Of a stretch of 64,000 nucleotides of DNA, positions 26,830-63,877 are shown piece by piece. The notes under the pieces are model-generated. The model saw only the letters and a program-made list of their open reading frames with translations. It made no database searches and was not told the DNA's origin. The DNA is from a virus. Location of the stretch: the IMG/VR virus record IMGVR_UViG_3300025889_000083, positions 40,149 to 104,148 of that record. One strand, 5' to 3'. Numbering within the stretch: the stretch's first letter is position 1; each line of letters starts with the position of its first letter. The position numbers and the translations under genes are program-made.

Positions 26830-28887
26830 TTAAGCAGAAGCTTTGTACATTTGTGCCCACTTTGAAGTAGCTCCATCGATAAGATCGAGGAATCCAATTC
26901 TTTGTGAAGCGACAAGCACTCTTCTTTGGTTAGCAACTTCGTAGTCAGACTCGATGGTTACACCTCTAAGTCTTGGAACTACATAGTTTCTTGGGTAAAC
27001 AGCAATTGCGTTAAATTTAGCAGCTGCTTTAGTAGCGAACTCGTCACAGAGTAATACTCTTGATCCGAAGACCTGTCCGATTTCACCAGATAGCTTAGTA
27101 GCCATGTCGCCAACTAGGTTAGCATCTTGGAACTCAGCATCTTCTAGAAGGTTGTAGTACACGTCTTGTGAAACGATGTATACGACTTCTGATGGGTTAA
27201 CACCATATTTACCCATGTTCTTTCTTAGAGCAAGAAGGTCAGCTGCAGTTACAACGTCAGAAGCTGCGAAAGTTCCTGATGGTTGTGTGTAGTCTGAATC
27301 ATTTCTTGCTAAGTGACATAGACCTTCGAAAGAAGCACCGCCAGTTCCGAAAGCACCGTCAGCGTCGTCACCGACGAGGATTGCGTTCTCGATTGCTCTA
27401 GCATGTGATCTAACCATAGACTCTCTAATTAAAGGAAGAATTGGTAGAATTGCATCTTCTTCAGTCTCGTTACCTAAGTATGATTGTGAAATAAGTTTTT
27501 TGGTTGAAAGAGTTCTTTCAGTTAAATCAACACCACCGTAAGCGGATCCATATGTATCACCTCTTTGTGCCAAGTTACCATGTGGTGAAGAACCACTAGC
27601 AGTTTGGTTAGATGTGAACTCAGCGTATCCTGAATCTGGTAATATTGGGATAATCATATTAGCAGAAGTCATTGGGATTTCTCTAAATAGAGGAGCCAAG
27701 ACTAGCTCATTTTGAATATCTCTTTCAATGTTGGTTGAAACAACTTGCTCGAAGTCAGCTGAAGATACACCCACACCTGAATGTGCGTTTACTTTCTGCA
27801 TAACGTCTTTAGCATATTTGTTTTCCCAACCTTTTCCAGTAGCTAGACCAGCGAATTTAGCATCGATGATATCTTTCTCAAATGCTTTTTTCCAATCGCC
27901 TTCTCCTTTTCTGTCTGAGAAAATTCTTTTAGACTCACGAATATTCATGATTTCTTCAGATTTTTCAGCAAGTTGTTTTTCAAGAGACTTAACGACTTGC
28001 TCTAAATTAGAGTAGTCTGATTTAACTCTTTTCTCAACATCTTGCATTAACTTCTCAGCACCTGAGAGTCCAGCTTGGACTATAGTTTTTTGCTCTTCCT
28101 GCTTTGCTTCCTGAGCAGCCTTTTCAGTAGCTTCAACTTCAGCTTGTTTTGCAACAGCTTCACTTTCAGCTTGCTTTTCAGCTGCTTTCTGTTCGGCTTG
28201 TTTCATAGCAATTTTAGCAGCAGTTTCTTCTGCTACTTGTTTTGCAAATGAAGCTAAGTCGAACTCTGGAGCTACAGGAGTTTTATTTTCTTCTGACATT
28301 TTCGTCTCCATTTTTTTGGCTTTCGCCTTACTTGGCTGCTCAACTTTAACAGCGTCTGCTGGTCCAGAAGAGTTAGCCTTAATAAACTCGGATTTAAACT
28401 TGTTATATTCATCCATACTATCAAATGATTTTGCGATGGAGAATGTAGCGCCTTGGTTGCAAGGAACCGAAACAACGCTCACTTCAAAAAGTTCTGCATC
28501 CTTGATTCTATATCCGTCGGTTTCAGTCATATAATCTGCGTCCTTGACTCTGAAGCCGACAGAAAATGCTCCAAGGACACCGTCTTTAATTAAATCTTTA
28601 ATGTGACCAGATGCTTTTGAAATTCTTGCAGATAGTTCTAGACCATCTTTATTAACTTCTACACCTGTTGCTCTACCAATAGGTTGGTTATAATCATGGT
28701 TAAAAAGAATAACTGGATTATTTTTAAAATTATCTAATCCACCTTTTGTCCATGCTTCTGCTTCAATAATATCACCAGCTCTATCGAGACCGTTGGTACT
28801 AGCTGATCCTTTAATATCTAGTCCACCGTCATCAGTTTCACCAAGTGATTTAAATGAACTTGTCCAATGAAAAATTTTATTTGACAT
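26830..28887 (-). CDS. Prohead protease fused to HK97 major capsid protein
   Basis: A 685-residue fusion. Residues 1-155 are an HK97-type prohead protease: HDYNQPIGRATGV with H64 and LGAFSVGF with S109 as candidate catalytic residues. Residues 200-330 are an Ala/Glu/Lys coiled coil that looks like the scaffolding delta domain. Residues about 355-685 are the HK97-fold capsid protein. An internal ATG at 28299 has a good GGAG ribosome site, so a separate 489-residue scaffold-capsid protein may also be made. Self-cleavage near residue 330-350 is expected. Confidence 0.9.
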   Translation of the reverse strand: MSNKIFHWTSSFKSLGETDDGGLDIKGSASTNGLDRAGDIIEAEAWTKGGLDNFKNNPVILFNHDYNQPIGRATGVEVNKDGLELSARISKASGHIKDLIKDGVLGAFSVGFRVKDADYMTETDGYRIKDAELFEVSVVSVPCNQGATFSIAKSFDSMDEYNKFKSEFIKANSSGPADAVKVEQPSKAKAKKMETKMSEENKTPVAPEFDLASFAKQVAEETAAKIAMKQAEQKAAEKQAESEAVAKQAEVEATEKAAQEAKQEEQKTIVQAGLSGAEKLMQDVEKRVKSDYSNLEQVVKSLEKQLAEKSEEIMNIRESKRIFSDRKGEGDWKKAFEKDIIDAKFAGLATGKGWENKYAKDVMQKVNAHSGVGVSSADFEQVVSTNIERDIQNELVLAPLFREIPMTSANMIIPILPDSGYAEFTSNQTASGSSPHGNLAQRGDTYGSAYGGVDLTERTLSTKKLISQSYLGNETEEDAILPILPLIRESMVRSHARAIENAILVGDDADGAFGTGGASFEGLCHLARNDSDYTQPSGTFAASDVVTAADLLALRKNMGKYGVNPSEVVYIVSQDVYYNLLEDAEFQDANLVGDMATKLSGEIGQVFGSRVLLCDEFATKAAAKFNAIAVYPRNYVVPRLRGVTIESDYEVANQRRVLVASQRIGFLDLIDGATSKWAQMYKASA
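28297..28309 (-). promoter_or_regulatory. Internal ribosome binding site and ATG for capsid-only product
   Basis: On the minus strand, GGAG (28309-28306) lies six bases before an in-frame ATG (28299-28297) encoding MSEENK. This is codon 197 of the fusion, exactly at the border of the protease and the scaffold-capsid part. Confidence 0.65.
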
Positions 28888-30833: not shown

Positions 30834-32132
30834 TTAGAAGGATGTAACGCTTGTCTCAAACGAATAGAGCGCATAGCGAAGCGCATCAGCCATGTGAGAG
30901 GCATGAGTGTGCTTAGGTTTTTCTTTGAGAAGATTTGGATTTGGATCCCACTGATATTGATCTAAACAGATTAGAGTTTCTTTGCATCTTTGATCTACTA
31001 TTAGTTTATCATTGTCTACAATTCCTGAAACATGTCCAATTCCATCAAGTACTGATTTTTTCGCATTAATAGTAGAAATGTCATAATTTTGAGCAAAATC
31101 AAATCGAGTTTGTTGAGCTGCAGAATCTATATAAATATAGTCAATATCCCACTTTTCAATCATCTTTCGTATCTCTGCAGCATGTTGCTCAGTAGTACGC
31201 TCACTATCTAAGTATTCATCTAAGAGATAGTATTTATCCTTATCCCAATCATATCCAATTACACAAAATGCAGTAGGATCTTTGTAACCTACGTCCATTC
31301 CTGCAAAGATATCCATTTTACTGGTATCAAGTTCAGCTAGATCTTGTTGACATTCAGCAAAGTTAAACTTCCAAACCTGTCCTTCATAGACATTGAAGTC
31401 AGCCATATACTCTTGTGAAAATTCTGCTTCAGACATAGTTTTTCTTGCCTCTGCTATATCATCTTCAGAGAGTCTTGGATTTTCGTGATAAGTAGCTTTT
31501 ACACTACACCACTCTGGAAATTCATTTGAGAAACCTCTATACCAAAATTCAGCAAACCAGTTATTTCTACCACGAGGTGTAGATATAAAAAGTGCTTTAG
31601 AATTGTCTTTATCGAGTGTAGGACGAAGTGCTACATTAAAAGCATCTCTGCCGTCTACAAGTGCTGCTTCGTCAAATATAATTAGATCGTAAGACCGACC
31701 CACGACAGAATCCACTTGGTTGACAGATCCCATCCTGATTGTGGAATGATTTGAGAGTTCGATAACTTTGTCTTTGGCATTGTCTCTGAGCACTTCGAGA
31801 TCAAAGTGTTTGATAAGATTACGTTGGAGATCAAAAGAGATTTGAGAGAGTGCATAGTTTGGTGACATGAGTAATACATTGCAGTTTGGTACCAGTGTGA
31901 CTAATTGCCCTATAATGTTGGCAATATATGTTTTTCCTTGACGACGTGAGACAGCAGCAACTACAAATCTATACTTAGGATTGTTAATTGCATTGATAAT
32001 TGCATGTTGAGAAGAATTTGGTTGAATACCAAGTAACTCCATATAGGAGTCTATCGGAAGTTTTATGAAACGATTCTCTTTAAATTCCATTAAGGAATCA
32101 GAGAGAATGTCTTTTCTTGAAATTTCTAACAT
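30834..32132 (-). CDS. terL: Large terminase subunit
   Basis: A 432-residue DNA packaging motor. The ATPase domain has a Walker A variant SRRQGKT (residues 62-68), Walker B LIIFDEAAL (150-158, catalytic E156) and a coupling motif LFISTPRG (181-188). The C-terminal RNase H-like nuclease shows D280 (GMDVGYKDPT) and D336 (YIYIDSAA). Gene order terL, HNH, portal, capsid is usual. The probable small subunit is not adjacent but 12 kb away (44047-44511). Confidence 0.93.
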   Translation of the reverse strand: MLEISRKDILSDSLMEFKENRFIKLPIDSYMELLGIQPNSSQHAIINAINNPKYRFVVAAVSRRQGKTYIANIIGQLVTLVPNCNVLLMSPNYALSQISFDLQRNLIKHFDLEVLRDNAKDKVIELSNHSTIRMGSVNQVDSVVGRSYDLIIFDEAALVDGRDAFNVALRPTLDKDNSKALFISTPRGRNNWFAEFWYRGFSNEFPEWCSVKATYHENPRLSEDDIAEARKTMSEAEFSQEYMADFNVYEGQVWKFNFAECQQDLAELDTSKMDIFAGMDVGYKDPTAFCVIGYDWDKDKYYLLDEYLDSERTTEQHAAEIRKMIEKWDIDYIYIDSAAQQTRFDFAQNYDISTINAKKSVLDGIGHVSGIVDNDKLIVDQRCKETLICLDQYQWDPNPNLLKEKPKHTHASHMADALRYALYSFETSVTSF

Positions 32133-37354: not shown

Positions 37355-37549
37355 TTACCCTATTGTTATAATTGTCCAGACAGCAAGAGCGCCTGCACTA
37401 ATGATACCACCAGCTGCAGCAATAAGAATATTTTGAATCTTATTTATTTCTGCATCTATATCGTCAAAACGATTAAAAGCCGTGTGCCATCTTTCGGCAC
37501 AGACTGCTTCATGCTTCTCTAAATCTGATGCTACTTTTTCAACGCTCAT
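37355..37549 (-). CDS. Coiled-coil protein with C-terminal membrane helix
   Basis: The start at ATG 37549 (64 residues) was chosen because of the GGGA ribosome site and the promoter at 37586-37614. A helical N-terminal part (VASDLEKHEAVCAERWH, DAEINKIQ) leads into one membrane segment (ILIAAAGGIISAGALAVWTI). This is the layout of XhlA-like membrane-associated proteins. Two other small membrane/coiled-coil genes lie in the curli operon. Confidence 0.6.
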   Translation of the reverse strand: MSVEKVASDLEKHEAVCAERWHTAFNRFDDIDAEINKIQNILIAAAGGIISAGALAVWTIITIG

Positions 37550-37585
37550 TTCTGTTTCCCTGAACTTTTGTATAAATACTATCAA

Positions 37586-37617: not shown

Positions 37618-39396
37618 TTATTTTCGGATGGTATAGATTTTGATGGGTTCTGTTTTGCCTTTAACAATAACCTCGTCTAAATATTCGTAATCGTAACCAT
37701 CCACTAAACTATACTCAGAGATAATGACTCCGACATCATATTCTTTGCATAAACTTTCTAGACGAGCAGCCAAATTAACGGCGTCCCCAAGGACAGAATA
37801 ATCAAAGCGAGAGGAAGAACCGAAGTTGCCCACCACGCAAGTCCCTGTGTTGATTCCTCCACCTGTGTTAATTTGATCAAGTCCTTCTTGCTCAAGTTGT
37901 TCATTTAACTCCTTTAGAGATTGTTTCATCTCAATAACTGCTTTTGTTGCGTTTTCTACTTGGTTATCATCATCGAGAGGTGCACCCCAAAACGCCATGA
38001 TGCAGTCTCCCATGTATTTGTCTATTGTTCCGCCATGCTTCATAATGATCTTAGTCTGATTGTCTAAAAATCGATTTATGAGAGTAGTAAGTCCTTGCGG
38101 ATTCTTCTGGTATTTTTCAGAGATCGGTGTAAATCCCCTGATATCGCTGAAAAGAAAAGTTAGTTGTTTCGTGACGCCACCCAATTGCAGTAATGATGGG
38201 TCTTCCTGTAATTTTTTCACCAACTCGGGACTCACATACGTCCCAAACTGTCGTTTAATCTGTTGTTTCTGTAAATATGTAGTAAAGAAACTACGGAAAC
38301 TTTCAATCGCCCAGAATAAAAACCAGATCAAAATAAGACCACTTGTGGACAATAAATAAGATGATTCTAAGGCATAAAACATTCCATAGATGGAACCTGC
38401 AATAAGTGTTACTAGGACAGGAATACTAAAATAAATACTACTAACAGCAAACCCCAAAATAAGTAGTCCAATAATTCCTGCCACGATTGTTGCACCGCCA
38501 CTCCAAGTAGGCGTAGAAAGTGCTGTGCCTTGTATAAGATTGTGTAAAGTGTTTGCTTGTATTTCATGTGGATATTTAGGTCCTGCGGGAGTTGGTACTG
38601 GATTATTAACTCCTTCTGCGGTTACTCCAAAGATAACGAATGGTGCAGCTATTGGATTTGCCAAAAACTCTGCTGCAGACTGGCGATAGAACTTAGTGTT
38701 CCAATCCAAAAAGATGCGACCATTCGCATCTGTAATCATATTTGGATAGTTGGGTACTCTAACCCAAGATATGCCTTCTTGTGTTGTTTTTAACTGGTAC
38801 GAAGGATCTCCTACGGCGACTCTTAAGAGTTCCAGAGCGAAACTCGGATACAGTTTTGACTGCACGTTTACTACGAGAGGCATACGCCGTGTTACTCCGT
38901 CTATCTCTGGTGATGCTGTTACTAGCCCGAGACCTGCCGCGTTTGCCGCTAGATTTGACTCGGTACGTAAAATTCCTGGGAATTGATATAGCCATGGTGT
39001 TGGGTCTTCTCCTAATTGAGCTGTTCCCACATGTAGAGAAAGCTCCTCTGACTGTGTAGAAGCTGCTGAGGCTATAACCGTTGGGGTCTGCATCATATTA
39101 GTTGCAAGTACATAGTCATTTCTGAAATCTCGAATATCGGGATCTGGCATAAGAACGCTGATCCCAGCAACATTTGATCTAGCAACTAGATCTGCATAAA
39201 GTGTTCTTGGAAGTGGGTAACCACCATAAGCTTCTACTATTTCTTCATCTAAGTCTACGATCAGTATATTTTCGTTTTGGACAGGATCTCTTGACATTAC
39301 AAGATAGTCCCAAGTTTTGAGTTCTAATAATTTGAATGGAAGTGGATTCCATATAAAGAGTGCTCCAAGAGCAAGTGCGATTCCGAATCTTACCAT
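37618..39396 (-). CDS. CHASE2-domain adenylate cyclase
   Basis: A 592-residue membrane enzyme. An N-terminal signal-anchor precedes a periplasmic CHASE2 sensor (about residues 25-295, ending GPKYPHEIQANTLHNL). Three membrane helices lie at about 300-366, then the usual linker (QFGTYVSPELVKKL). The class III cyclase domain has metal ligands D418 (LFSDIRGFT) and D464 (DKYMGDCIMAFWG), plus K460 and YSVLGDAVNLAARLE, which favour ATP as substrate. Product: cAMP. It is the last gene of the operon with FecR and curli-like genes. Such a sensor cyclase is very unusual in a virus. Confidence 0.92.
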   Translation of the reverse strand: MVRFGIALALGALFIWNPLPFKLLELKTWDYLVMSRDPVQNENILIVDLDEEIVEAYGGYPLPRTLYADLVARSNVAGISVLMPDPDIRDFRNDYVLATNMMQTPTVIASAASTQSEELSLHVGTAQLGEDPTPWLYQFPGILRTESNLAANAAGLGLVTASPEIDGVTRRMPLVVNVQSKLYPSFALELLRVAVGDPSYQLKTTQEGISWVRVPNYPNMITDANGRIFLDWNTKFYRQSAAEFLANPIAAPFVIFGVTAEGVNNPVPTPAGPKYPHEIQANTLHNLIQGTALSTPTWSGGATIVAGIIGLLILGFAVSSIYFSIPVLVTLIAGSIYGMFYALESSYLLSTSGLILIWFLFWAIESFRSFFTTYLQKQQIKRQFGTYVSPELVKKLQEDPSLLQLGGVTKQLTFLFSDIRGFTPISEKYQKNPQGLTTLINRFLDNQTKIIMKHGGTIDKYMGDCIMAFWGAPLDDDNQVENATKAVIEMKQSLKELNEQLEQEGLDQINTGGGINTGTCVVGNFGSSSRFDYSVLGDAVNLAARLESLCKEYDVGVIISEYSLVDGYDYEYLDEVIVKGKTEPIKIYTIRK

Positions 39397-39755
39397 GATA
39401 TATTAAAATGTACTCCCATGCTTTCGTGATTTATTACCACGCCCCACTGAACTATATTTGCTGCAATCAGTCCGTATTTTCGATTGTCTCTACTATCATT
39501 AAATTTGTAGAGTACATATGATCCTAATATTTTTTGTGCGAGTATTCGGTCTGGATGTGGACGATTTGAAAATAATGGATTACTTTCCATATATTTTCCA
39601 TTTTTGAAAGCATCTTTTGATTGTTCGTAGTCTATCCAGCTTCCTATATTGTAAGCATAGTATAAGTTTCGTTCTGTTTGTGTCCAATCATTCAGACTGC
39701 CGTAAGATAATAGAGGAACCGCCGCTATTAACCACAATATTAATGTCTTTGCCAT
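39390..39755 (-). CDS. Secreted protein of unknown function
   Basis: The start at ATG 39755 was chosen (121 residues) because it begins a clean signal peptide (MAKTLILWLIAAVPLLSYG). The mature part has Trp/Tyr-rich segments (NLYYAYNIGSWIDYEQS, NPLFSNRPHPDRI). It sits between the FecR-domain gene and the cyclase gene and overlaps both, so it should act with them in the periplasm or membrane. No family recognised. Confidence 0.65.
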   Translation of the reverse strand: MAKTLILWLIAAVPLLSYGSLNDWTQTERNLYYAYNIGSWIDYEQSKDAFKNGKYMESNPLFSNRPHPDRILAQKILGSYVLYKFNDSRDNRKYGLIAANIVQWGVVINHESMGVHFNISW

Positions 39756-40767
39756 CTTGTGATAATATGATATTATATCCTTGAGAGGCATCTAAGTTTA
39801 CATAAATTGTATCACTTATACTTCTCGTCATTTTTAGTCTTCCAGAGTCTACTAAAGTAATTATTTGAGTCTCTGCATCTTGTCCTATTTCTGTTCCTGT
39901 AATTTGTAATGAGCCATCAGAGTCAAGTTCTTTTCCTCCTTCTTTTAGCTCGTCTACTGCTTCAATGATATCTAGTAAGTCTTCGAGAAAGTTTACATCT
40001 AATAAATCTACATCTATCTCACTAAACTCTAAGTCTTCTTCAAAGAAGTCTTCTGCAAGTAGATCTACCTCTAAATCATTAAAGTCTAAAAAATCTGCTC
40101 GGGCTGTCTTTTCTTCTTCAACAAGTTCTTCCTCTTTTGGAGGACTTACAATTAACATATTGTCAATCGCATCTAAAGTTAAGTCTAATATTACATTGCT
40201 ACTGGGAGCTTTCTCCCACATGCTTGCGACTGTGCTTTCAAATGGTTTATTGAGTACAGTAGTTCCTGCCGCCGTTGCTACCGTGATTTCACCGCTAGAT
40301 ATACCATTGACATCAGGAAGAAGAATAACCAGACTACGCCCCAACTCATCAACAGTAACAGTGAAGTCAGTTCCACGAATACCGATTTGAGCAGTTGGAG
40401 TGGATATACTAATATTCTCCTTATTAATCGCACCTATTTTCCCTGTGATAAATCGTGCAGTTCCTGAAGCAAATTGTAAGCCAATTTTTGACTTGCTTGG
40501 ATTTGGGTCAAAGACCACTTCATCAAGTATAAGCTTACTATGCTCAGTGAGACGCACAACACTATCGTCACTAAAAGTAATACCGAGGCGAGTATTAGCA
40601 GTTCGAACGTCATCATAACTATTTACTCCTATATTAACAGAAACGGGCAATTGCTCGCCCGTTCTATTTATTTCTGCATGATTACCGTTTAATTCAGTTA
40701 CGCTACCAATACCATCAGCATGAAGTGACAGTACCAGCATCATTTTGATAAATACAAATATTCGCAT
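39688..40767 (-). CDS. FecR-domain periplasmic protein
   Basis: ATG 40767 gives a 359-residue protein with a short signal peptide (MRIFVFIKMMLVLSLHA). A FecR domain follows at about 25-150: VSVNIGVNSYDDVRT, DDSVVRLTEHSKLIL and TPTAQIGIRGTDFTV are hallmarks. Residues about 215-275 are very acidic (DFLDFNDLEVDLLAEDFF), a possible disordered or ligand-binding region. FecR domains usually sense or scaffold in the periplasm. It overlaps the curlin-like gene by 53 bases. Confidence 0.85.
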   Translation of the reverse strand: MRIFVFIKMMLVLSLHADGIGSVTELNGNHAEINRTGEQLPVSVNIGVNSYDDVRTANTRLGITFSDDSVVRLTEHSKLILDEVVFDPNPSKSKIGLQFASGTARFITGKIGAINKENISISTPTAQIGIRGTDFTVTVDELGRSLVILLPDVNGISSGEITVATAAGTTVLNKPFESTVASMWEKAPSSNVILDLTLDAIDNMLIVSPPKEEELVEEEKTARADFLDFNDLEVDLLAEDFFEEDLEFSEIDVDLLDVNFLEDLLDIIEAVDELKEGGKELDSDGSLQITGTEIGQDAETQIITLVDSGRLKMTRSISDTIYVNLDASQGYNIILSQDGKDINIVVNSGGSSIILRQSE

Positions 40768-41452
40768 TTGATCCACTTGTTCCGCTAGTCGTTGAATTAA
40801 TATTCAAGTAATCCTTTGCCAGTGTAGATTGCTGGTCTATAATAAAGTTTGTATAATCACCTGTATGATCTAGATAAAACTCATGTCCTGCATAGTTATC
40901 TGCATCGTAGTCCAGAGTATTATAATCTCCAGTTATGTCAATATCAAAGATTGCATTATCTACATCTATATTTGAAGTGATTGTATTATAATCACCGCTT
41001 ATAACAGCATCGTAGTCAACACCAGTTGCTGCTGCAGCTGTTGCTATTCTTACTGTCATGTCATTTCCACTTCCAGTAATATCTACATCTATGTTAAGAT
41101 TATCGCCGCCATAAGTTCCAGTTGCATCTACATCAATATCAAAGATATTGCTATCTCCTGTAAATGTAAAGTTTCCTGCAACTGTATCAGCTACGATATC
41201 TCCTATAAAATCGTTGCCATCTCCAATCTGATTTATATCAATCGTTTGACTGTTTCCTGTCAAATTAAATGTGCTAATTGGATCATTTCCACTTGCTGTT
41301 TCGTTTCCTTTTACTTGGTTTCCACTTCCAATCTGGTCTATCTCTATTTGAGCATTACTCCCAGATTGTGTTATGTAGATTTCATTATCCGCTGCATATG
41401 CACTTATAGTAAAAAGTACTATTAAACTAAGATTTACCCCCACTAGTTTCAT
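40715..41452 (-). CDS. Curlin-repeat (CsgA/CsgB-like) secreted protein
   Basis: A 245-residue protein with a signal peptide (LIVLFTISAYA, cleavage after residue 20). The mature start YITQSGSNAQIEIDQIGSGN fits the curlin pattern Q-x-G-x-x-N with alternating hydrophobics, followed by further NINQIGDGND and GDYNTI/TGDYNTLDY units. These Asp/Asn/Gly-rich repeats predict a beta-solenoid amyloid-like fold. It follows the CsgG gene, so it is the likely secretion substrate. The repeats are more degenerate than in E. coli CsgA. Confidence 0.82.
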   Translation of the reverse strand: MKLVGVNLSLIVLFTISAYAADNEIYITQSGSNAQIEIDQIGSGNQVKGNETASGNDPISTFNLTGNSQTIDINQIGDGNDFIGDIVADTVAGNFTFTGDSNIFDIDVDATGTYGGDNLNIDVDITGSGNDMTVRIATAAAATGVDYDAVISGDYNTITSNIDVDNAIFDIDITGDYNTLDYDADNYAGHEFYLDHTGDYTNFIIDQQSTLAKDYLNINSTTSGTSGSNANICIYQNDAGTVTSC

Positions 41453-42293
41453 TTTGCTCTCCCAAGCTGGCTACTGACCAGTAGCCTCTTCTATTTCCTT
41501 CTAAAATAGTTTCATATACTCCTGTCTCAATTGCTTTCTGAAGTGCAATAGTAACGCTTTCGTTCTTTGTCACTCCATTCTCAACTTCGACAAGTTCTGT
41601 TCCCATCTCAATAAATCGAAAAACATCTTGATTTACTGCGACACTGAGAATCGTTTTTGTTATAAGCACTTCCATGAGAATCTCTCCAGTGCTTACACTT
41701 ACTGTTCTTAATGATACCGTCACGGTATCTTCTCGATATTGCTTACTTGCTCCAATACCTAAATATCTTGCTCCTGTTCCTCCTGACTTTAAATTGGTAT
41801 CATAACCAATTACGCCACCTTCCATAATAAGTCCTGCGAAAAGCAGGGGAAGCATGTCTTCGGATTCTCGTAGCGAATCTCGTGTGGAGCGAATGAGCTG
41901 TCTCTCTTTTGTAAGATGATCGAGTCCAACTCGTTCAACAACTCGAAAGAAACTTCCTTGCCCTGCATGCTTGAGTGCTCGTACGAGTAAAGCGTCAGGT
42001 GACATGGTGACTGCAGTGCTGAACAACGCGAACTGGCTATTACTTTTTCGTTGTCCTGTGAGGTCACTAAAGCTATATACAGCAACAGTTGGGATATTAT
42101 TAGAAGTCCGAGTAATATTCCACAGATTTTCATTTGTAATCTGTCGGACTTCAGCAATCTCCATTTTACTAAAATAACCTGTGTTATTTTCGAGAAGACT
42201 CTTAACATCATATCCCCCAAAACAACTACTAAGGCATAAAGTCGCCAAAGGAACCAATCGGAATTGTAATCTCTGTAACTTGTCCATCTGCAT
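41427..42293 (-). CDS. csgG: CsgG-like outer-membrane secretion lipoprotein
   Basis: A 288-residue protein with a lipobox LSSC (lipidated C24) after a signal sequence. The core is textbook CsgG: VAVYSFSDLTGQRKSN, ALFSTAVTMSPDALLVRALK, then VVERVGLDHLTKERQLIRST. CsgG forms a nonameric outer-membrane pore for curlin subunits. The length matches E. coli CsgG (277). Neighbours are CsgF-like upstream and a curlin-like gene downstream; there is no CsgE in view. The gene overlaps both. Confidence 0.93.
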   Translation of the reverse strand: MQMDKLQRLQFRLVPLATLCLSSCFGGYDVKSLLENNTGYFSKMEIAEVRQITNENLWNITRTSNNIPTVAVYSFSDLTGQRKSNSQFALFSTAVTMSPDALLVRALKHAGQGSFFRVVERVGLDHLTKERQLIRSTRDSLRESEDMLPLLFAGLIMEGGVIGYDTNLKSGGTGARYLGIGASKQYREDTVTVSLRTVSVSTGEILMEVLITKTILSVAVNQDVFRFIEMGTELVEVENGVTKNESVTIALQKAIETGVYETILEGNRRGYWSVASLGEQNETSGGKS

Positions 42294-42732
42294 CTGTAAT
42301 TCTTAGAGTAATTGTTGTACCATCACTGGAATACTCAATTGTGTTTCCTTCAATAACAACTGTACCGTAGGCTTCAAGTCCTTGTCCGTTAGATCCAAAG
42401 AGTTGATCGACGAGATCTCGTGATAACTGAGAATAAACTCTACTCTCGAAGTTCTTGAGAAATCGTGCGAGAGTTGATGACTCTGCGTCTCGTTTTGCTT
42501 GTTCAATTGCTGCTTCTAAATCGTCTTTAATTTTATTTTTTCGAGTGTTTTCTTGATTTTCGATTGTCAAGTAATGTGCCGATGTTCCGATCCCAGAGAA
42601 ACTGGGATTGTTGAACTTGTGCACCATTTCGTCGGTATAACCTTTCACCGCAAAAAATATTGCTCCACCAATACATACTAAACCAATCGTAATACTAAGG
42701 AATCTTTTTCGTAGCGGAGTCTTTCTTCTCAT
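42229..42732 (-). CDS. csgF: CsgF-like curli assembly factor
   Basis: A 167-residue protein. A signal-anchor (ITIGLVCIGGAIFFAVKG) leads to the CsgF N-terminal motif HKFNNPSFSGIGTSAHYL, which in E. coli (FRNPNFGG) inserts into the CsgG pore. A helical linker (residues about 62-105) and a beta domain (YGTVVIEGNTIEYSSDG, TITLRITDADGQ) follow the CsgF layout. It overlaps the CsgG gene by 65 bases. Confidence 0.87.
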   Translation of the reverse strand: MRRKTPLRKRFLSITIGLVCIGGAIFFAVKGYTDEMVHKFNNPSFSGIGTSAHYLTIENQENTRKNKIKDDLEAAIEQAKRDAESSTLARFLKNFESRVYSQLSRDLVDQLFGSNGQGLEAYGTVVIEGNTIEYSSDGTTITLRITDADGQVTEITIPIGSFGDFMP

Positions 42733-42961
42733 TTTCTTTCATCTGTAGAATTGTATCTACCTTTTGCTGTAGTCTTATTAGATCATTGTCGAGCATACGA
42801 ACTTGGTCGATTAACTTAATAAGTGCAAAGTGCATTTCTTCAACAGCAGGTTCCACCACATCATTAAGGTTTGTCCACATATAGTAAACAAAATAACCAA
42901 GTCCAACCATCGCAATGATTGGAAAACCAAAGTCTTGTATCAGTTGTCCTATGTCTTCCAT
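42695..42961 (-). CDS. Small membrane protein with coiled coil
   Basis: An 88-residue protein. One membrane segment near the N-terminus (FPIIAMVGLGYFVYYMWTNL), then a heptad region (LIDQVRMLDNDLIRLQQKV). It resembles the 43335-43631 product in layout and sequence (both carry an N-D-x-I-R-L motif), so the two are paralogues. Holin/BhlA-like families have this topology. It lies between iscU and csgF. Confidence 0.6.
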   Translation of the reverse strand: MEDIGQLIQDFGFPIIAMVGLGYFVYYMWTNLNDVVEPAVEEMHFALIKLIDQVRMLDNDLIRLQQKVDTILQMKENEKKDSATKKIP

Positions 42962-43335
42962 GAAGCTAGTGCCTTTTTGATACTTTCTTCTGCTAAGACT
43001 GAGCAGTGTAATTTTATACTTGGAAGTTCAAGAGCAGCAGCTATATCTCTATCTTTTATCTTAAGAGCCTCTTCTACTGTCTTTCCAACAAGCATGTCTA
43101 CAAAAAGACTGCTTGAAGCGATTGCACTTCCACAACCATATGTTTTAAACTTTACATCTTGTATTATGTTATCTTCAATCTTAAGTTGAAGTTTCATTAC
43201 GTCTCCACAAGCTGGAGCTCCTACCATTCCAGTAGCAACTCTCGGATCGCTGGGATCAAATCTACCAACGGAAAATTTTTCGGGATTACTAAGTACTCCT
43301 TCAAATCTTTCTACTACTTGTCTGCTATATGCCAT
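42949..43335 (-). CDS. iscU: IscU-like iron-sulfur cluster scaffold
   Basis: A 128-residue protein matching IscU over its full length. C43, D45 (GAPACGDVMKLQ), C68 (FKTYGCGSAIASSS), H110 and C111 (IKLHCSVLAEE) are all present, as is an LPSIK version of the LPPVK chaperone-binding motif (104-108). It should build [2Fe-2S] clusters from host IscS sulfur. It overlaps both neighbours. It is clearly of bacterial IscU type and could come from a host lineage with an Isc system. Confidence 0.93.
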   Translation of the reverse strand: MAYSRQVVERFEGVLSNPEKFSVGRFDPSDPRVATGMVGAPACGDVMKLQLKIEDNIIQDVKFKTYGCGSAIASSSLFVDMLVGKTVEEALKIKDRDIAAALELPSIKLHCSVLAEESIKKALASWKT

Positions 43336-43631
43336 TAATCTCTTCTCACGTCTAAAGTGCCAGCTTCAATAAAATTCTCTGCTCTGGCAATTCTATTTAG
43401 ATCTGGCACAAGTCCAAGAGCAGCACTTACAGTTGTGTCTAATCTTATCATGTCATTATTGATTGTTTTGACACGAGTAGTAAGTGAAGTACAAAACATT
43501 TTAAGAGTTCCAATACTAGAAGCAACTCCTTCCATCTTCTGTTTCATAACAAGAAAGATGAAGTATCCCATAACAAGTGCGCCTGCTATCGGTGCTCCAA
43601 CTTCTGCTATAAGATTAAGTACTTCTTCCAT
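43335..43631 (-). CDS. Small membrane protein with coiled coil, paralogue
   Basis: A 98-residue protein with one N-terminal membrane segment (APIAGALVMGYFIFLVM) followed by a helical stretch (NNDMIRLDTTVSAALG). It matches the layout of the 42695-42961 product. It sits between iscA and iscU. Membrane anchor or holin-like role is conceivable but unproven. Confidence 0.6.
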   Translation of the reverse strand: MEEVLNLIAEVGAPIAGALVMGYFIFLVMKQKMEGVASSIGTLKMFCTSLTTRVKTINNDMIRLDTTVSAALGLVPDLNRIARAENFIEAGTLDVRRD

Positions 43632-43926
43632 TTATAAATGACTCTCCACAGCCACAGCGGGTGTAAGGCAAGTCAAAAGTAAGTTTTTCATTTAAGTCAC
43701 TTTCAAGTCCGATCTCAACTGGCTCTAACATCTCCCAGTCTGAAAAAGGAATATGGATTGAGAAAAATCCAAAGTCCACCATATATGTTCCCCCAACTTC
43801 TGAGGTTTCTATAAATTCGATACTATTACCGCTGCAACCACGACGAGCAGACCTAAGTAGTATTCTCGCTGGTTTCTTTGCAATGCGCTCCGTAATAAAT
43901 TGTATGGCTTCATTAGATATCTTCAC
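43615..43926 (-). CDS. iscA: IscA/HesB-like iron-sulfur carrier
   Basis: A 103-residue A-type carrier. C31 (RRGCSGNS) and the C-terminal C91-G-C93-GESF motif are the three cluster-binding Cys. The sequence between is somewhat divergent from cellular IscA. HesB-like genes are known in T4-like marine phages; the pairing with IscU in one operon here strengthens an iron-sulfur maturation role. Confidence 0.88.
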   Translation of the reverse strand: MKISNEAIQFITERIAKKPARILLRSARRGCSGNSIEFIETSEVGGTYMVDFGFFSIHIPFSDWEMLEPVEIGLESDLNEKLTFDLPYTRCGCGESFINGRST

Positions 43927-44050
43927 CGTCCATGTATTTGCCCCAGAGGTATTTAGCCCCTACGTATGCACCTCCTAAAATGCTTGCCCAGATAACTAGG
44001 CTAAATAAATATTTAAATAATGTGTATGGTAATAAAATAAATTCTATCAT
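43913..44050 (-). CDS. Small membrane protein
   Basis: A 45-residue protein (MIEFILLPYTLFKYLFSLVI then WASILGGAYVGAKYLWGK). It consists of a single long hydrophobic segment with a short polar end. It overlaps the stop of the terS-like gene by ATGA. The function is unknown. Confidence 0.55.
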   Translation of the reverse strand: MIEFILLPYTLFKYLFSLVIWASILGGAYVGAKYLWGKYMDGEDI

Positions 44051-44511
44051 GTTTTGTCCTGTAATAATCGTTCCATTAACTTGCCGTAATTTCCCTGACC
44101 GAATGGTAATTCTCCATTTATCTGCACATTCGTCTGGTTTTTAATATTAGAGGCTTTGGCTTTCTCAAGTTCTGCCATTGCCTTGATCTCATCCATGCGC
44201 ATCTTGTGCGCTAGGCTTAGTAGATCTACGACATCCTTATTAGTGTAAACTTGACTTTCTTCTGCTTCTTCTAGTTTCTGTTCTATTATATCGTCAAGTT
44301 TATTTGCAATTTTAAATCTATTGCGATATCCTGTGTCCAGATAGACTTGATCGATATACTGGCGAACTTCTCTTTTATTGAGTAGATCTTGTACAGTATT
44401 TTCATCAAGTTTAAGTCGTAAACAAACTGACTGAACATTTCCCAGTTCTAAATAACAGTTCGCTACTTCTAAGCCTTCTGGAGACATTCTTGTTGCGATT
44501 TCATTTTTCAT
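44047..44511 (-). CDS. terS: Probable small terminase subunit
   Basis: A 154-residue helical protein. An N-terminal helix-turn-helix (CYLELGNVQSVCLRLKLDENT) is followed by REVRQYIDQVYLDTGYRNR and a conserved KDVVDLLSLAHKMRMDE helix, as in small terminases of T4-like marine phages. It is separated from terL by 12 kb and heads the iron-sulfur/curli operon. A regulator is an alternative. The ATG is only six bases after the -10 box. Confidence 0.65.
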   Translation of the reverse strand: MKNEIATRMSPEGLEVANCYLELGNVQSVCLRLKLDENTVQDLLNKREVRQYIDQVYLDTGYRNRFKIANKLDDIIEQKLEEAEESQVYTNKDVVDLLSLAHKMRMDEIKAMAELEKAKASNIKNQTNVQINGELPFGQGNYGKLMERLLQDKT

Positions 44512-57765: not shown

Positions 57766-57876
57766 ATGAAGAAAGTTCGCCAAGAACAAGATATGCTTCT
57801 TAAAAGCAAAGCAGACGAAATGTCTGAGGATATAAAAAGACGATGCAAATTAGTAATAAAGGACTTGATCTTATAA
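57766..57876 (+). CDS. Possible small charged protein overlapping the lysozyme gene
   Basis: 36 residues (MKKVRQEQDMLLKSKADEMS), right behind the hairpin. It overlaps the lysozyme start by 34 bases. No clear ribosome site, so it may be untranslated. Confidence 0.3.
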   Translation: MKKVRQEQDMLLKSKADEMSEDIKRRCKLVIKDLIL

Positions 57877-58277
57877 AGTTTTATGAAGGCTTAGAACTCG
57901 AAGCCTATAAGTGTGCTGCTGGAGTGTTAACTATTGGTTATGGTTGGACACATGATGTTAAGGAAGGAGATACCATAACAGAAGAACGAGCAGAGGAGCT
58001 CCTCAGAGAAGGCATAGTACAGTACGAAAATGCCGTACATGATCTCGTTGATGTTCCACTCGAGCAGCACCAATTTGACGCTCTTGTCAGTTGGGTGTAT
58101 AATTTAGGAAAGGCAAATTTAGCCGCTTCTACACTACTCAAAAAAGTAAATGCACAAGAGTTTGATGAAGTGCCAGATCAAATCCGAAGATGGAACAAAG
58201 CTGGCGGTAAAGTTTTAGAAGGACTTACCAAAAGAAGAGAAAGTGAAGCAAAGCTTTGGTCAACTGGTGAGTTCTAA
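57843..58277 (+). CDS. Endolysin, phage lysozyme GH24 family
   Basis: 144 residues. The catalytic triad follows lambdoid lysozymes: E15 (KFYEGLELEAY), C24 in the place of Asp, and T30 (GVLTIGYGWTHD). QFDALVSWVYNLG is the usual helix. It cleaves the peptidoglycan MurNAc-GlcNAc bond. No N-terminal signal, so it needs a holin to reach the cell wall. Spanin-like genes follow. Confidence 0.93.
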   Translation: MQISNKGLDLIKFYEGLELEAYKCAAGVLTIGYGWTHDVKEGDTITEERAEELLREGIVQYENAVHDLVDVPLEQHQFDALVSWVYNLGKANLAASTLLKKVNAQEFDEVPDQIRRWNKAGGKVLEGLTKRRESEAKLWSTGEF

Positions 58278-58687
58278 TGTGGAAGATATTTGCAGGAACA
58301 ACAGTAATGTTTGCATTAAGTACTTTTTATTTATGGCAAACTAATCAAGTTCTAGTAGAAAACAATGTAAAACTAGAAAGTGCGATTGCTACACAAGAAG
58401 CAGCAATACAGAGTCTACAAAACGACTTCACACTACAAACAGGACAACTAAACGAATTACAAAAGAAAAGTCAAGAAGCACAGTTAGAAATGAATCGCTA
58501 TCTTGATATTTTCAGAAGGCATAACCTCAGCAAATTAGCTGCAGCAAAGCCTGGGCTAATAGAGCCAAAAGTGAATAAAGCAACAAAAGAGGTATTTGAT
58601 GGTATTGAACAAGATAGCCGTGACATTGATGACGCTGACGATGGTCTCACAATGCAGCCTACTCCTACCGAAGAAGTTAGAGGTTAG
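58277..58687 (+). CDS. Rz-like inner-membrane spanin
   Basis: 136 residues. N-terminal membrane anchor (FAGTTVMFALSTFYLWQ) and long coiled coil (AIATQEAAIQSLQNDFTLQT), acidic Pro-rich end. One-base overlap with the lysozyme gene. Topology and position fit i-spanins, which fuse inner and outer membranes in the last step of lysis. Confidence 0.78.
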   Translation: MWKIFAGTTVMFALSTFYLWQTNQVLVENNVKLESAIATQEAAIQSLQNDFTLQTGQLNELQKKSQEAQLEMNRYLDIFRRHNLSKLAAAKPGLIEPKVNKATKEVFDGIEQDSRDIDDADDGLTMQPTPTEEVRG

Positions 58688-58970
58688 TGCAAAACCCATA
58701 GAGAGGCAGATCGCACAACCAGTTCTACCTCGAGAAATAGATTTAAAAGAGCCATATTGGTATGTGGTAAGTGCAGAAAACTTAGATGAGTTTCTAGCAA
58801 GAGTTGAAAAAGAGAGTGGACAAGTAGTATTTTTTGCTATGTCAGTCCCTGATTACGAACTCATGGCATACAATATGCAAGAGTTAAAACGATATATTCG
58901 TGAACTCAAAGAAGTAGTAATATACTACAGAAAGGTTACGACAAATGAAACCAGTATCAATACGAAATAG
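58599..58970 (+). CDS. Possible outer-membrane spanin partner or secreted protein
   Basis: 123 residues from ATG 58599 (GAGG site seven bases upstream). The signal-like N-terminus (IAVTLMTLTMVSQCSLL) has a Cys at a position suited to lipidation, although the lipobox is imperfect. It starts inside the Rz-like gene in another frame, as Rz1 does. Longer than Rz1, with a soluble C-terminal domain (YWYVVSAENLDEFLARV), so other roles are possible. Confidence 0.5.
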   Translation: MVLNKIAVTLMTLTMVSQCSLLLPKKLEVSAKPIERQIAQPVLPREIDLKEPYWYVVSAENLDEFLARVEKESGQVVFFAMSVPDYELMAYNMQELKRYIRELKEVVIYYRKVTTNETSINTK

Positions 58971-63277: not shown

Positions 63278-63877
63278 ATGAATTTATTTTATCTTGATGA
63301 AGATTTTGACAAGTGTGCTGAGTACCATGTAGACAAGCACATAGTAAAAATGCCGCTCGAAGCAGCACAGCTTTTGTGTACTGCTATTTGGGTAGATCAT
63401 GTGCTAGGCTTTGTACCTCGTGCTTTGAACAAAGAAGAAACCAAAGCACTCAATGAGGAAAAAGCTAAGATCAAAGATTTACCTATGGAGGAACGACCTT
63501 TGACTCCATACTTGCCAATGATGTACAACCATCCTTGCACAATATGGACTAGGTCGTCTCTCGATAACTTTGAGTGGACTCACTGCTATGCCAATGCGTT
63601 GAATGACGAGTATCATTATCGCTATGGCAAACAACACAAATCGGTAGTAGAAGTAATCAATAAACTGCCCGAGCCAAAGAATATGCCTCGATTGGGGCAA
63701 ACACCTTTTGGTATGGCAATGCCAGACGAGTTGAAAGACGAGAATGATGTTGTGGGCAGTTACCGATTGTATTACCATACTGATAAGGCAACATTTGCCG
63801 CATGGTCACATCGTGACAAGCCATACTGGTGGGATGAAGGTCTCGCATGGTATGACAAGAGAATAACAGCTAAATGA
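63278..63877 (+). CDS. Conserved phage protein, possible nucleic-acid repair enzyme
   Basis: 199 residues. MNLFYLDEDFDKCAEYHVDK followed by HIVKMPLEAAQLLCTA is the start of a conserved phage family, sometimes labelled pyrimidine-dimer glycosylase-like. The Trp-rich C-terminus (AAWSHRDKPYWWDEGLAWY) is also conserved. Activity unproven. No leader is apparent. Confidence 0.65.
   Translation: MNLFYLDEDFDKCAEYHVDKHIVKMPLEAAQLLCTAIWVDHVLGFVPRALNKEETKALNEEKAKIKDLPMEERPLTPYLPMMYNHPCTIWTRSSLDNFEWTHCYANALNDEYHYRYGKQHKSVVEVINKLPEPKNMPRLGQTPFGMAMPDELKDENDVVGSYRLYYHTDKATFAAWSHRDKPYWWDEGLAWYDKRITAK

Follow-up and report, generated by a model that had tools for sequence, protein, structure and literature searches.

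A curli-type secretion and FecR-CHASE2 signaling gene module between the terminase genes of a T5-like phage

The window analyzed in this work, a stretch of 64,000 nucleotides corresponding to bases 40149-104148 of the 104,148-base IMG/VR virus record IMGVR_UViG_3300025889_000083, contained a gene module of type VIII (curli) secretion followed by genes for a FecR-domain protein and a CHASE2 adenylate cyclase. Six open reading frames (ORFs), coding for CsgF, CsgG, a curlin-like protein, the FecR protein, a protein of 133 amino acids (aa) and the cyclase, overlapped in series at 37618-42732 on the minus strand. They had been reported as consecutive overlapping genes in an initial annotation made from the sequence alone, and Pfam matches to CsgG, CsgF, FecR, CHASE2 and Guanylate_cyc confirmed this. 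The unit was nevertheless larger than the gene list given there, as it also included two small related membrane proteins, TM88 and TM98, with a NifU gene between them; the order of transcription was TM98, NifU, TM88, CsgF, CsgG, curlin-like protein, FecR protein, 133-aa protein and CHASE2 cyclase, most of these genes overlapping their neighbors (Table 1). The module is phage DNA located between the genes of the small (terS) and large (terL) terminase subunits of a marine T5-like phage, a new carrier lineage for a known module. At the level of sequence, the genes, their order, the catalytic residues of the cyclase and the insertion between terS and terL are established, together with the prediction of a solenoid-type export substrate. 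As to the role of this phage-borne set, secretion to the host surface late in infection, coupled to sensing, is the function that we hold, by a narrow balance, to be probable. The contribution of the work is the new carrier lineage and an improved parts list for a module already known.

Insertion site, gene content and recurrence

Domains were searched with Pfam and phage families with PHROG. The module lay within the 11.9 kb separating terS and terL, on the same strand as both. Serratia phage Kamaji was the top match among those listed for the large terminase, followed by Slocum and My1; among the matches listed, the portal was closest to Pectobacterium phage My1 (42%) and the major tail protein to Kamaji (33%). 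My1 and Slocum belong to the Demerecviridae, and in both of them terS adjoins terL, an adjacency seen in these two phages that is not a known defining rule of T5-like phages. Since 11.9 kb separate terS from terL in the window, its phage is called T5-like here and not placed in a family.

Relatives were collected from IMG/VR in two sets of loci, set 1 being the best 80 of 415 relatives of the window CsgG and the HTVC008M-nearest set the best 80 of 194 relatives of the CsgG of phage HTVC008M. Both are nearest-neighbor samples with related or cut contigs among them, and they comprised 55 and 62 distinct CsgG sequences, respectively, with none in common. The name "T4-like" for the second set would be a label taken from the query only and not assigned per contig; 11 of its 80 loci presented spanin genes and a differing gene order. 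Nine other set-1 contigs were grouped with the window, as T5-like, by their neighboring genes, and in 7/7 of those tested terL was 80-84% identical to that of the window (one of these seven terL genes being cut at the contig end and another being in two pieces), whereas the window terL had no match in seven comparator contigs carrying the module. In the four T5-like loci reaching the terS position (L003, L006, L007, and L009), a terS 64-71% identical to that of the window was found just upstream of the module. Because these relatives repeat both terL and the terS-module arrangement, a chance join with host DNA is excluded, and the concern raised in the initial annotation, that host chromosome might have been wrongly joined to phage contigs, did not hold.

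Of the 80 set-1 loci, 78 had CsgF, 79 the curlin-like protein, 73 FecR and 50 the cyclase; in the HTVC008M-nearest set, 25/80 loci had the cyclase, many contigs of either set being cut. The 415 IMG/VR stretches with CsgG relatives and the genes shared by the best 80 indicated an association beyond chance. Synteny was equally clear, the module order being common to both sets of loci, HTVC008M and the Methylophilales phage Melnitz. The combination had initially been taken as unreported; this proved incorrect, as Wittmers et al. 2022 (PMC9599517; this and the other publications are cited here from passages of their texts) described it in pelagiphages, and Melnitz and HTVC008M carry the same order. 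An extra curlin-like gene, absent from the window, was observed in the interval between TM88 and CsgF of four T5-like relatives (L003:4771-5562, L005:143-991, L006:1727-2518, and L007:4640-5431).

L009 was the sole carrier of NifU among the 80 set-1 loci other than the window, and in both of them the gene stood between TM98 and TM88; in L101, L219, and L220 it was found between the FecR or curlin-like gene and the cyclase. These varied positions inside or beside the module suggest repeated insertion, and NifU is probably a passenger within it. Near NifU, a 103-aa protein (window 43615-43926) gave a weak Fe-S_biosyn match (E 0.068), so that two Fe-S related genes are found together.

Table 1. 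Features of the window: the module in order of transcription, the next gene downstream, the terminase genes bordering the insertion and the lysis genes (values after family names are E-values; the listed starts of the CsgG, FecR and 133-aa ORFs are probably mechanical, with true starts further downstream)
Feature	Position	Strand	Match and remarks
TM98, 98 aa	43335-43631	minus	phrog_18771 8.9e-24; one N-terminal transmembrane segment; probable coiled coil (by eye)
NifU-like Fe-S scaffold	42949-43335	minus	NifU_N 6.9e-37
TM88, 88 aa, relative of TM98	42695-42961	minus	phrog_18771 8.5e-25; weak holin phrog_4898 1.6e-4
CsgF-like secretion accessory	42229-42732	minus	PF10614 3e-17; phrog_35372 1.2e-41
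CsgG outer-membrane pore protein	41427-42293	minus	PF03783 1.2e-50; probable lipoprotein (by eye)
Curlin-like secreted protein, proposed export substrate	40715-41452	minus	Curlin_rpt 0.0067, under cut-off
Secreted FecR-domain protein	39688-40776	minus	PF04773 5.6e-12
Small secreted protein, 133 aa	39390-39791	minus	no Pfam or PHROG match
CHASE2 class III adenylate cyclase, 592 aa	37618-39396	minus	CHASE2 3.8e-33; Guanylate_cyc 3.5e-21
76-aa protein, C-terminal hydrophobic segment, next gene downstream	37355-37585	minus	phrog_38642 0.0014
Terminase small subunit (terS), upstream border of insertion	44047-44511	minus	phrog_3802 1.9e-40
Terminase large subunit (terL), T5-like, downstream border	30834-32132	minus	Kamaji 49.5%
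Endolysin, context, outside module	57843-58277	plus	phrog_7 1.7e-59
i-spanin, context, outside module	58277-58687	plus	phrog_739 9e-13
o-spanin, context, outside module	58596-58970	plus	phrog_812 5e-11

Encoded proteins and bacterial counterparts

CsgG residues 69-280 aligned to the CsgG structure 4uv2 (E 1.6e-44). In the curlin-like protein, a ladder of Gln, Gly and Asn residues was invariant over the 36 aligned members (Q29, G31, Q40, G42, N45, Q75, G77, and N80, along with others), and the curlin repeat was found at E ≤ 0.01 in nine of them, the window included. AlphaFold2 modeled this protein as stacked short strands (predicted local distance difference test score, pLDDT, 78; predicted template modeling score 0.77). 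Foldseek with the model returned nothing at E ≤ 0.001 (best E 0.44); VIA-align of the Foldseek candidates gave parallel beta-helices, the best being 5awg_A of the SufB-SufC-SufD complex (Z 17.2, root mean square deviation 3.8, 199 aligned), a likeness limited to the class of fold. The curlin-like alignment, used as a profile against the PDB, yielded three weak matches (best E 0.012), none of them named curli. The models support a beta-solenoid, as anticipated in the initial annotation, and amyloid formation by this protein is putative.

The FecR protein displayed a signal-like N-terminus, a FecR domain, a long low-confidence linker and a C-terminal beta stretch, and its AlphaFold2 model (pLDDT 58) was too poor for structure search. 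In a FecR regulator, an inner-membrane segment connects the FecR domain in the periplasm with a part in the cytoplasm. By simple hydropathy, no hydrophobic segment past residue 60 was found in 116 of the 118 FecR relatives; with a signal-like segment only, a reading as iron regulator or anti-sigma protein is unsupported, and the "iron regulator" label for the FecR of the module is probably wrong. The 133-aa protein matched neither Pfam (E ≤ 1) nor PHROG (E ≤ 0.1), and its relatives occurred in 8/80 set-1 loci, five of them in the FecR-cyclase interval and three in the TM98-CsgF interval. In the cyclase, D418, K460, D464, N541, and R545, which we take to be the two metal-binding Asp, the Lys for adenine and the Asn and Arg of the transition state, were kept in 66/66 relatives (59 distinct), and residue 534, the other purine site, was Ser in 41 and Thr in 25 of them. 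This set of residues fits an active adenylate cyclase.

A TM88/98 gene was found upstream of csgF, at no more than 1.8 kb, in every locus with at least 800 bases upstream, namely 65/65 in set 1 and 74/74 in the HTVC008M-nearest set (44 and 57 distinct CsgG sequences, respectively; 139/139 altogether). Most relatives had about 80-120 aa, and with a simple cut one hydrophobic segment was counted in 122/122 TM98 relatives (of at least 70 aa) and in 82/122 TM88 relatives. When 50,697 phage records were searched with the window TM98 and the TM88 of L014, only six matched, all of them with CsgG (HTVC008M twice and four Melnitz strains). A seventh CsgG record, OR851715.1 (1,499 bases, labelled Salmonella phage S.Kent 1-2-1, CsgG at 337-975), may be host curli DNA, judging by its short length. 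As they appeared solely in phages with the module and in all testable loci, TM88/98 look like dedicated parts of it. They occupy, in the same number, the place of the "histidine kinases", one or two of which precede the module according to Wittmers et al. 2022 (PMC9599517), so that the kinase name looks wrong. Neither HisKA nor HATPase was among the 25 families listed (to E 0.098) for 27 TM88/98 members, taken from the window, from HTVC008M and Melnitz, and from 16 of the 80 loci in set 1. We rejected the histidine kinase label on these domain results, the kinases of the paper being equated with TM88/98 by position and number; the published label is probably wrong, a doubt that affects the label rather than membership in the module.

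FecR and CHASE2 are an existing bacterial neighbor pair, which is a new point for the module. Among 56 genomes from the Stagnimonas class, which we take to be Gammaproteobacteria, 15 of the 34 FecR matches over the cut-off had a CHASE2 domain no more than 3.5 kb away, counted whatever its output domain (0.23 expected), and 14 of these 15 pairs were on the same strand. In a scan of named genomes, seven of 23 cyclase loci were whole modules and two (L088 and L091) were cut; FecR stood directly beside the cyclase in four of the other 14 (L096, L099, L100, and L106) and within about 2.2 kb in two more (L095 and L107). CsgF over the cut-off was found in 3/289 alphaproteobacterial genomes and in 5/274 genomes of the class of Stagnimonas. 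Leaving aside G059, which was cut, and the sub-threshold G269, which gave no anchor, seven bacterial curli loci could be inspected, and none of them presented TM88/98, FecR or cyclase within 5 kb with the virus-built profiles, of which those for FecR may overlook remote members. The bacterial FecR-CHASE2 pairs, and the curli loci without them, suggest that the phage module joins both, plus the module-only proteins.

A CsgG tree of 75 rows, built by a quick method and with its long branches flagged, separated the viral-side rows from the seven bacterial rows with a support of 98 in the Shimodaira-Hasegawa-like approximate likelihood ratio test; the nine T5-like rows grouped together (99), as did 17 HTVC008M-nearest rows (90). 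All seven whole modules found in the genome collection grouped on the viral side, and the CsgG of one of them, L105, labelled Maricaulis, was identical to that of the viral contig L069 over the tree columns. These bacterial-labelled contigs are probably phage contigs in bacterial bins. They were L086, L087, L089, L090, L093, L101, and L105, from reference genomes of Pelagibacter, Maricaulis, Flavobacteriaceae, and others; phage-type lysozyme genes were also observed in L090 and L101.

Other features of the window were recorded. The 76-aa protein encoded next downstream of the cyclase had no Pfam match, its PHROG being a family of unknown function; it resembled XhlA by architecture only (by eye), and its family was present in 27/80 set-1 loci. 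An ORF of 685 aa (26830-28887), with a head maturation protease match at its start and the major head protein near its end, is a possible protease-capsid fusion, My1 having two separate genes. Near both ends of the 104-kb record, similar but diverged genes (by eye) were found at window 63278-63877, a DNA-binding phrog_624 member, and at L082:141-734.

Function of the module and association with lysis genes

In the interpretation that we prefer, late surface secretion with sensing, the module would probably be expressed with the late genes of the T5-like phage. CsgG would form an outer-membrane pore with CsgF as its partner, and the curlin-like protein would be exported to build a surface layer or fiber on the infected cell or in the lysate. 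Borrowed as a pair from bacterial signaling, the CHASE2 cyclase and the secreted FecR protein may act as a periplasm-to-cytoplasm sensor producing cyclic AMP (cAMP) upon a change in the envelope or in the export process, and TM88/98 would be dedicated inner-membrane partners, their orientation (N-terminus probably outside, coil inside) being judged by eye from charge. The gain would most likely lie in altering the surface of the host at a late stage of infection, close to lysis, so as to shield against competitors or keep cells and progeny together.

The neighborhood of the module in the smaller phages points to such late, lysis-time action. Lysozyme, i-spanin and o-spanin genes were located with profiles derived from set 1, which could miss other lysozyme families, and one representative of each family was checked. 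Requiring flanks of 2.5 kb on both sides removed 67/80 set-1 loci, all T5-like ones among them, and 77/80 loci of the HTVC008M-nearest set. Of the 13 two-flank loci of set 1, 12 had lysis genes no more than 2.5 kb from the module (11 distinct CsgG sequences; the miss was L031), as compared to 1/13 around NifU, the single gene used as control, one control locus of which (L220) itself carries the module. Taken by side, they were downstream in 17/22 set-1 loci and upstream in 7/40. A PF00959 endolysin gene was located within 5.1 kb of csgG in 15 of the 16 long records having such a gene (seven of 23 had no match and were left out) vs. 5.0 with random placement; this limit was picked after seeing the data, and the test assumes independent records, though they are related. 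On the CsgG tree, the labels holin-lysozyme and spanin-lysozyme, set by hand for 26 rows ("holin" being a name given by position to a membrane protein with an unknown PHROG), needed five changes each, of which well-supported branches forced 3 and 4, respectively. These repeated changes suggest that the module stays by the lysis genes while their arrangement shifts. The location beside endolysin and spanin genes in smaller phages, unlike in the window, is a new point: among open-licence texts (figures and supplements excluded), we found no publication that reports a T5-like carrier of the module or its location beside these genes.

Several observations weigh against late surface secretion with sensing. 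The constriction of CsgG was unlike that of E. coli in the 4uv2 alignment, with the E. coli residue numbers that we take to be those of the constriction; the pore-loop pattern failed in 133/162 sequences, and for this reason no count is given for constriction residues. In the curlin-like protein, initially described as a curlin-repeat protein, the repeat (PF07012) remained under the Pfam cut-off (16.8 vs. 20.7 bits). CsgE, the periplasmic cap, was absent from the Pfam matches of the ten proteins scanned, although a diverged or distant CsgE is possible; CsgC and CsgD were likewise absent. No cyclic nucleotide-binding protein was found in the possibly incomplete 104-kb record (G000), and cAMP would therefore need a host receptor. 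In the window, the lysis genes start 14.2 kb from the module edge (15.6 kb from csgG) on the opposite strand. In the HTVC008M-nearest set, they were beside the module in 0/3 two-flank loci (by side, downstream in 0/3 and upstream in 12/44) and were found at all in only 14/80 loci. Finally, no clumping was seen in cells infected with Melnitz (Buchholz et al., PMC9004378).

A lysis module, in which the CsgG/CsgF pore and the small membrane proteins would act in lysis or time it with FecR-CHASE2 as the trigger, seems to us unlikely, albeit worth serious attention. A pore assisting lysis had been proposed in the initial annotation and was already in print, since Buchholz et al. 2022 (PMC9004378) suggested a pinholin- or secretin-like lysis role for the curli genes of Melnitz. 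The lysis genes close to the module in set 1, the endolysin distances, the label changes on the tree and a weak holin PHROG match (E ≤ 0.01) in 11 of the 27 TM88/98 members argue for it. However, an endolysin and both spanins coexist with the module in the window and in loci such as L012, L021, L045, and L064, so no lysis step is missing and the pore need not replace one; CsgG as a spanin substitute was rejected on the same grounds. The separation in the window and the counts in the HTVC008M-nearest set also speak against a lysis module, TM88/98 were confined to phages with the module, unlike a general holin, and late regions of small phages may just tolerate insertions near lysis genes.

It is quite improbable that CsgG is an ungated import pore admitting nutrients or cofactors, with the curlin-like and FecR proteins as remnants. 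The lack of CsgE among the matches would be in keeping with it, and a role in uptake was proposed by Zaragoza-Solas et al. 2020 (PMC7029224) and Wittmers et al. 2022 (PMC9599517), but a bare pore fails to explain the recurring curlin-like, FecR and cyclase genes with conserved residues. We give little credit to cAMP signaling as the primary function, with the cyclase reprogramming the host and the curli part merely supplying its input. The fully conserved catalytic residues, the recurrent FecR-CHASE2 pair of bacteria, and the link of such an operon to biofilm in Burkholderia (PMC5192318) favor that role; on the other hand, the cyclase was present in only part of the loci of both sets (many of them cut by contig ends) and was missing from loci, L012 for example, in which a long stretch downstream was available, which indicates that the curli part persists without the cyclase. 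Equally speculative is an envelope-state sensor timing lysis, in which CsgG/CsgF export and the FecR protein would signal through the CHASE2 cyclase, and then through cAMP or the TM88/98 coils, to the lysis genes; such a device, sensing for instance superinfection or crowding, would use a bacterial signaling pair to parallel the lysis inhibition of T4. Neutral passenger DNA, or misjoined host DNA, has a negligible probability, as insertion regions of variable content are indeed common in such phages but independent contigs contradict this origin through terL, terS, and the conserved active sites.

Comparison with known systems

CsgF and CsgG were reported in an earlier work by Zaragoza-Solas et al. 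2020 (PMC7029224), and csgG or curli genes appear in further viral contigs (PMC7003362, PMC7198788, and PMC9636769). According to Wittmers et al. 2022 (PMC9599517), the CsgF, CsgG, and CsgA/B genes of podo- and myoviruses among the pelagiphages are followed by those of FecR, frequently another CsgA/B, and an adenylate cyclase, and the module is distributed and expressed ocean-wide. As far as those passages describe it, the pelagiphage module shares with that of the window the order CsgF, CsgG, curlin, FecR, a second gene and cyclase, with one or two small genes upstream. In contrast, the window phage is T5-like and not among the podo- or myoviruses of those studies, NifU is inserted, the 133-aa protein sits where the second CsgA/B often stands, and the upstream genes encode single-transmembrane proteins without kinase domains. 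Melnitz presented the same order as the window (TM98, TM88, CsgF, CsgG, curlin, FecR, curlin, and cyclase) but it differs in being a Kyanoviridae record of 141 kb, with a CsgG 46% identical over 76% of the query, and had no lysozyme or spanin match within 8 kb of csgG with the profiles of this analysis. HTVC008M and Melnitz are cultured carriers, and the module is thus open to experiment.

The csg system of E. coli (type VIII secretion) has in common with the window module the CsgG pore, CsgF and a curlin-like substrate, whereas FecR, the cyclase, and TM88/98 belong to the phage module and were not found with the virus-built profiles at 7/7 bacterial curli loci. The BiofilmReg operon, a FecR-CHASE2 operon controlling biofilm in Burkholderia (PMC5192318), likewise has a secreted FecR-domain protein adjoining a CHASE2 membrane receptor; in the passages cited, it combines a histidine kinase with a LysM-FecR protein, whereas the window pair has a cyclase output and lies beside curli genes. 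The phage set, of about eight genes for secretion and signaling and occurring in several unlike marine phage backgrounds, resembles curli genes joined to the stand-alone bacterial FecR-CHASE2 pair plus membrane proteins proper to the module.

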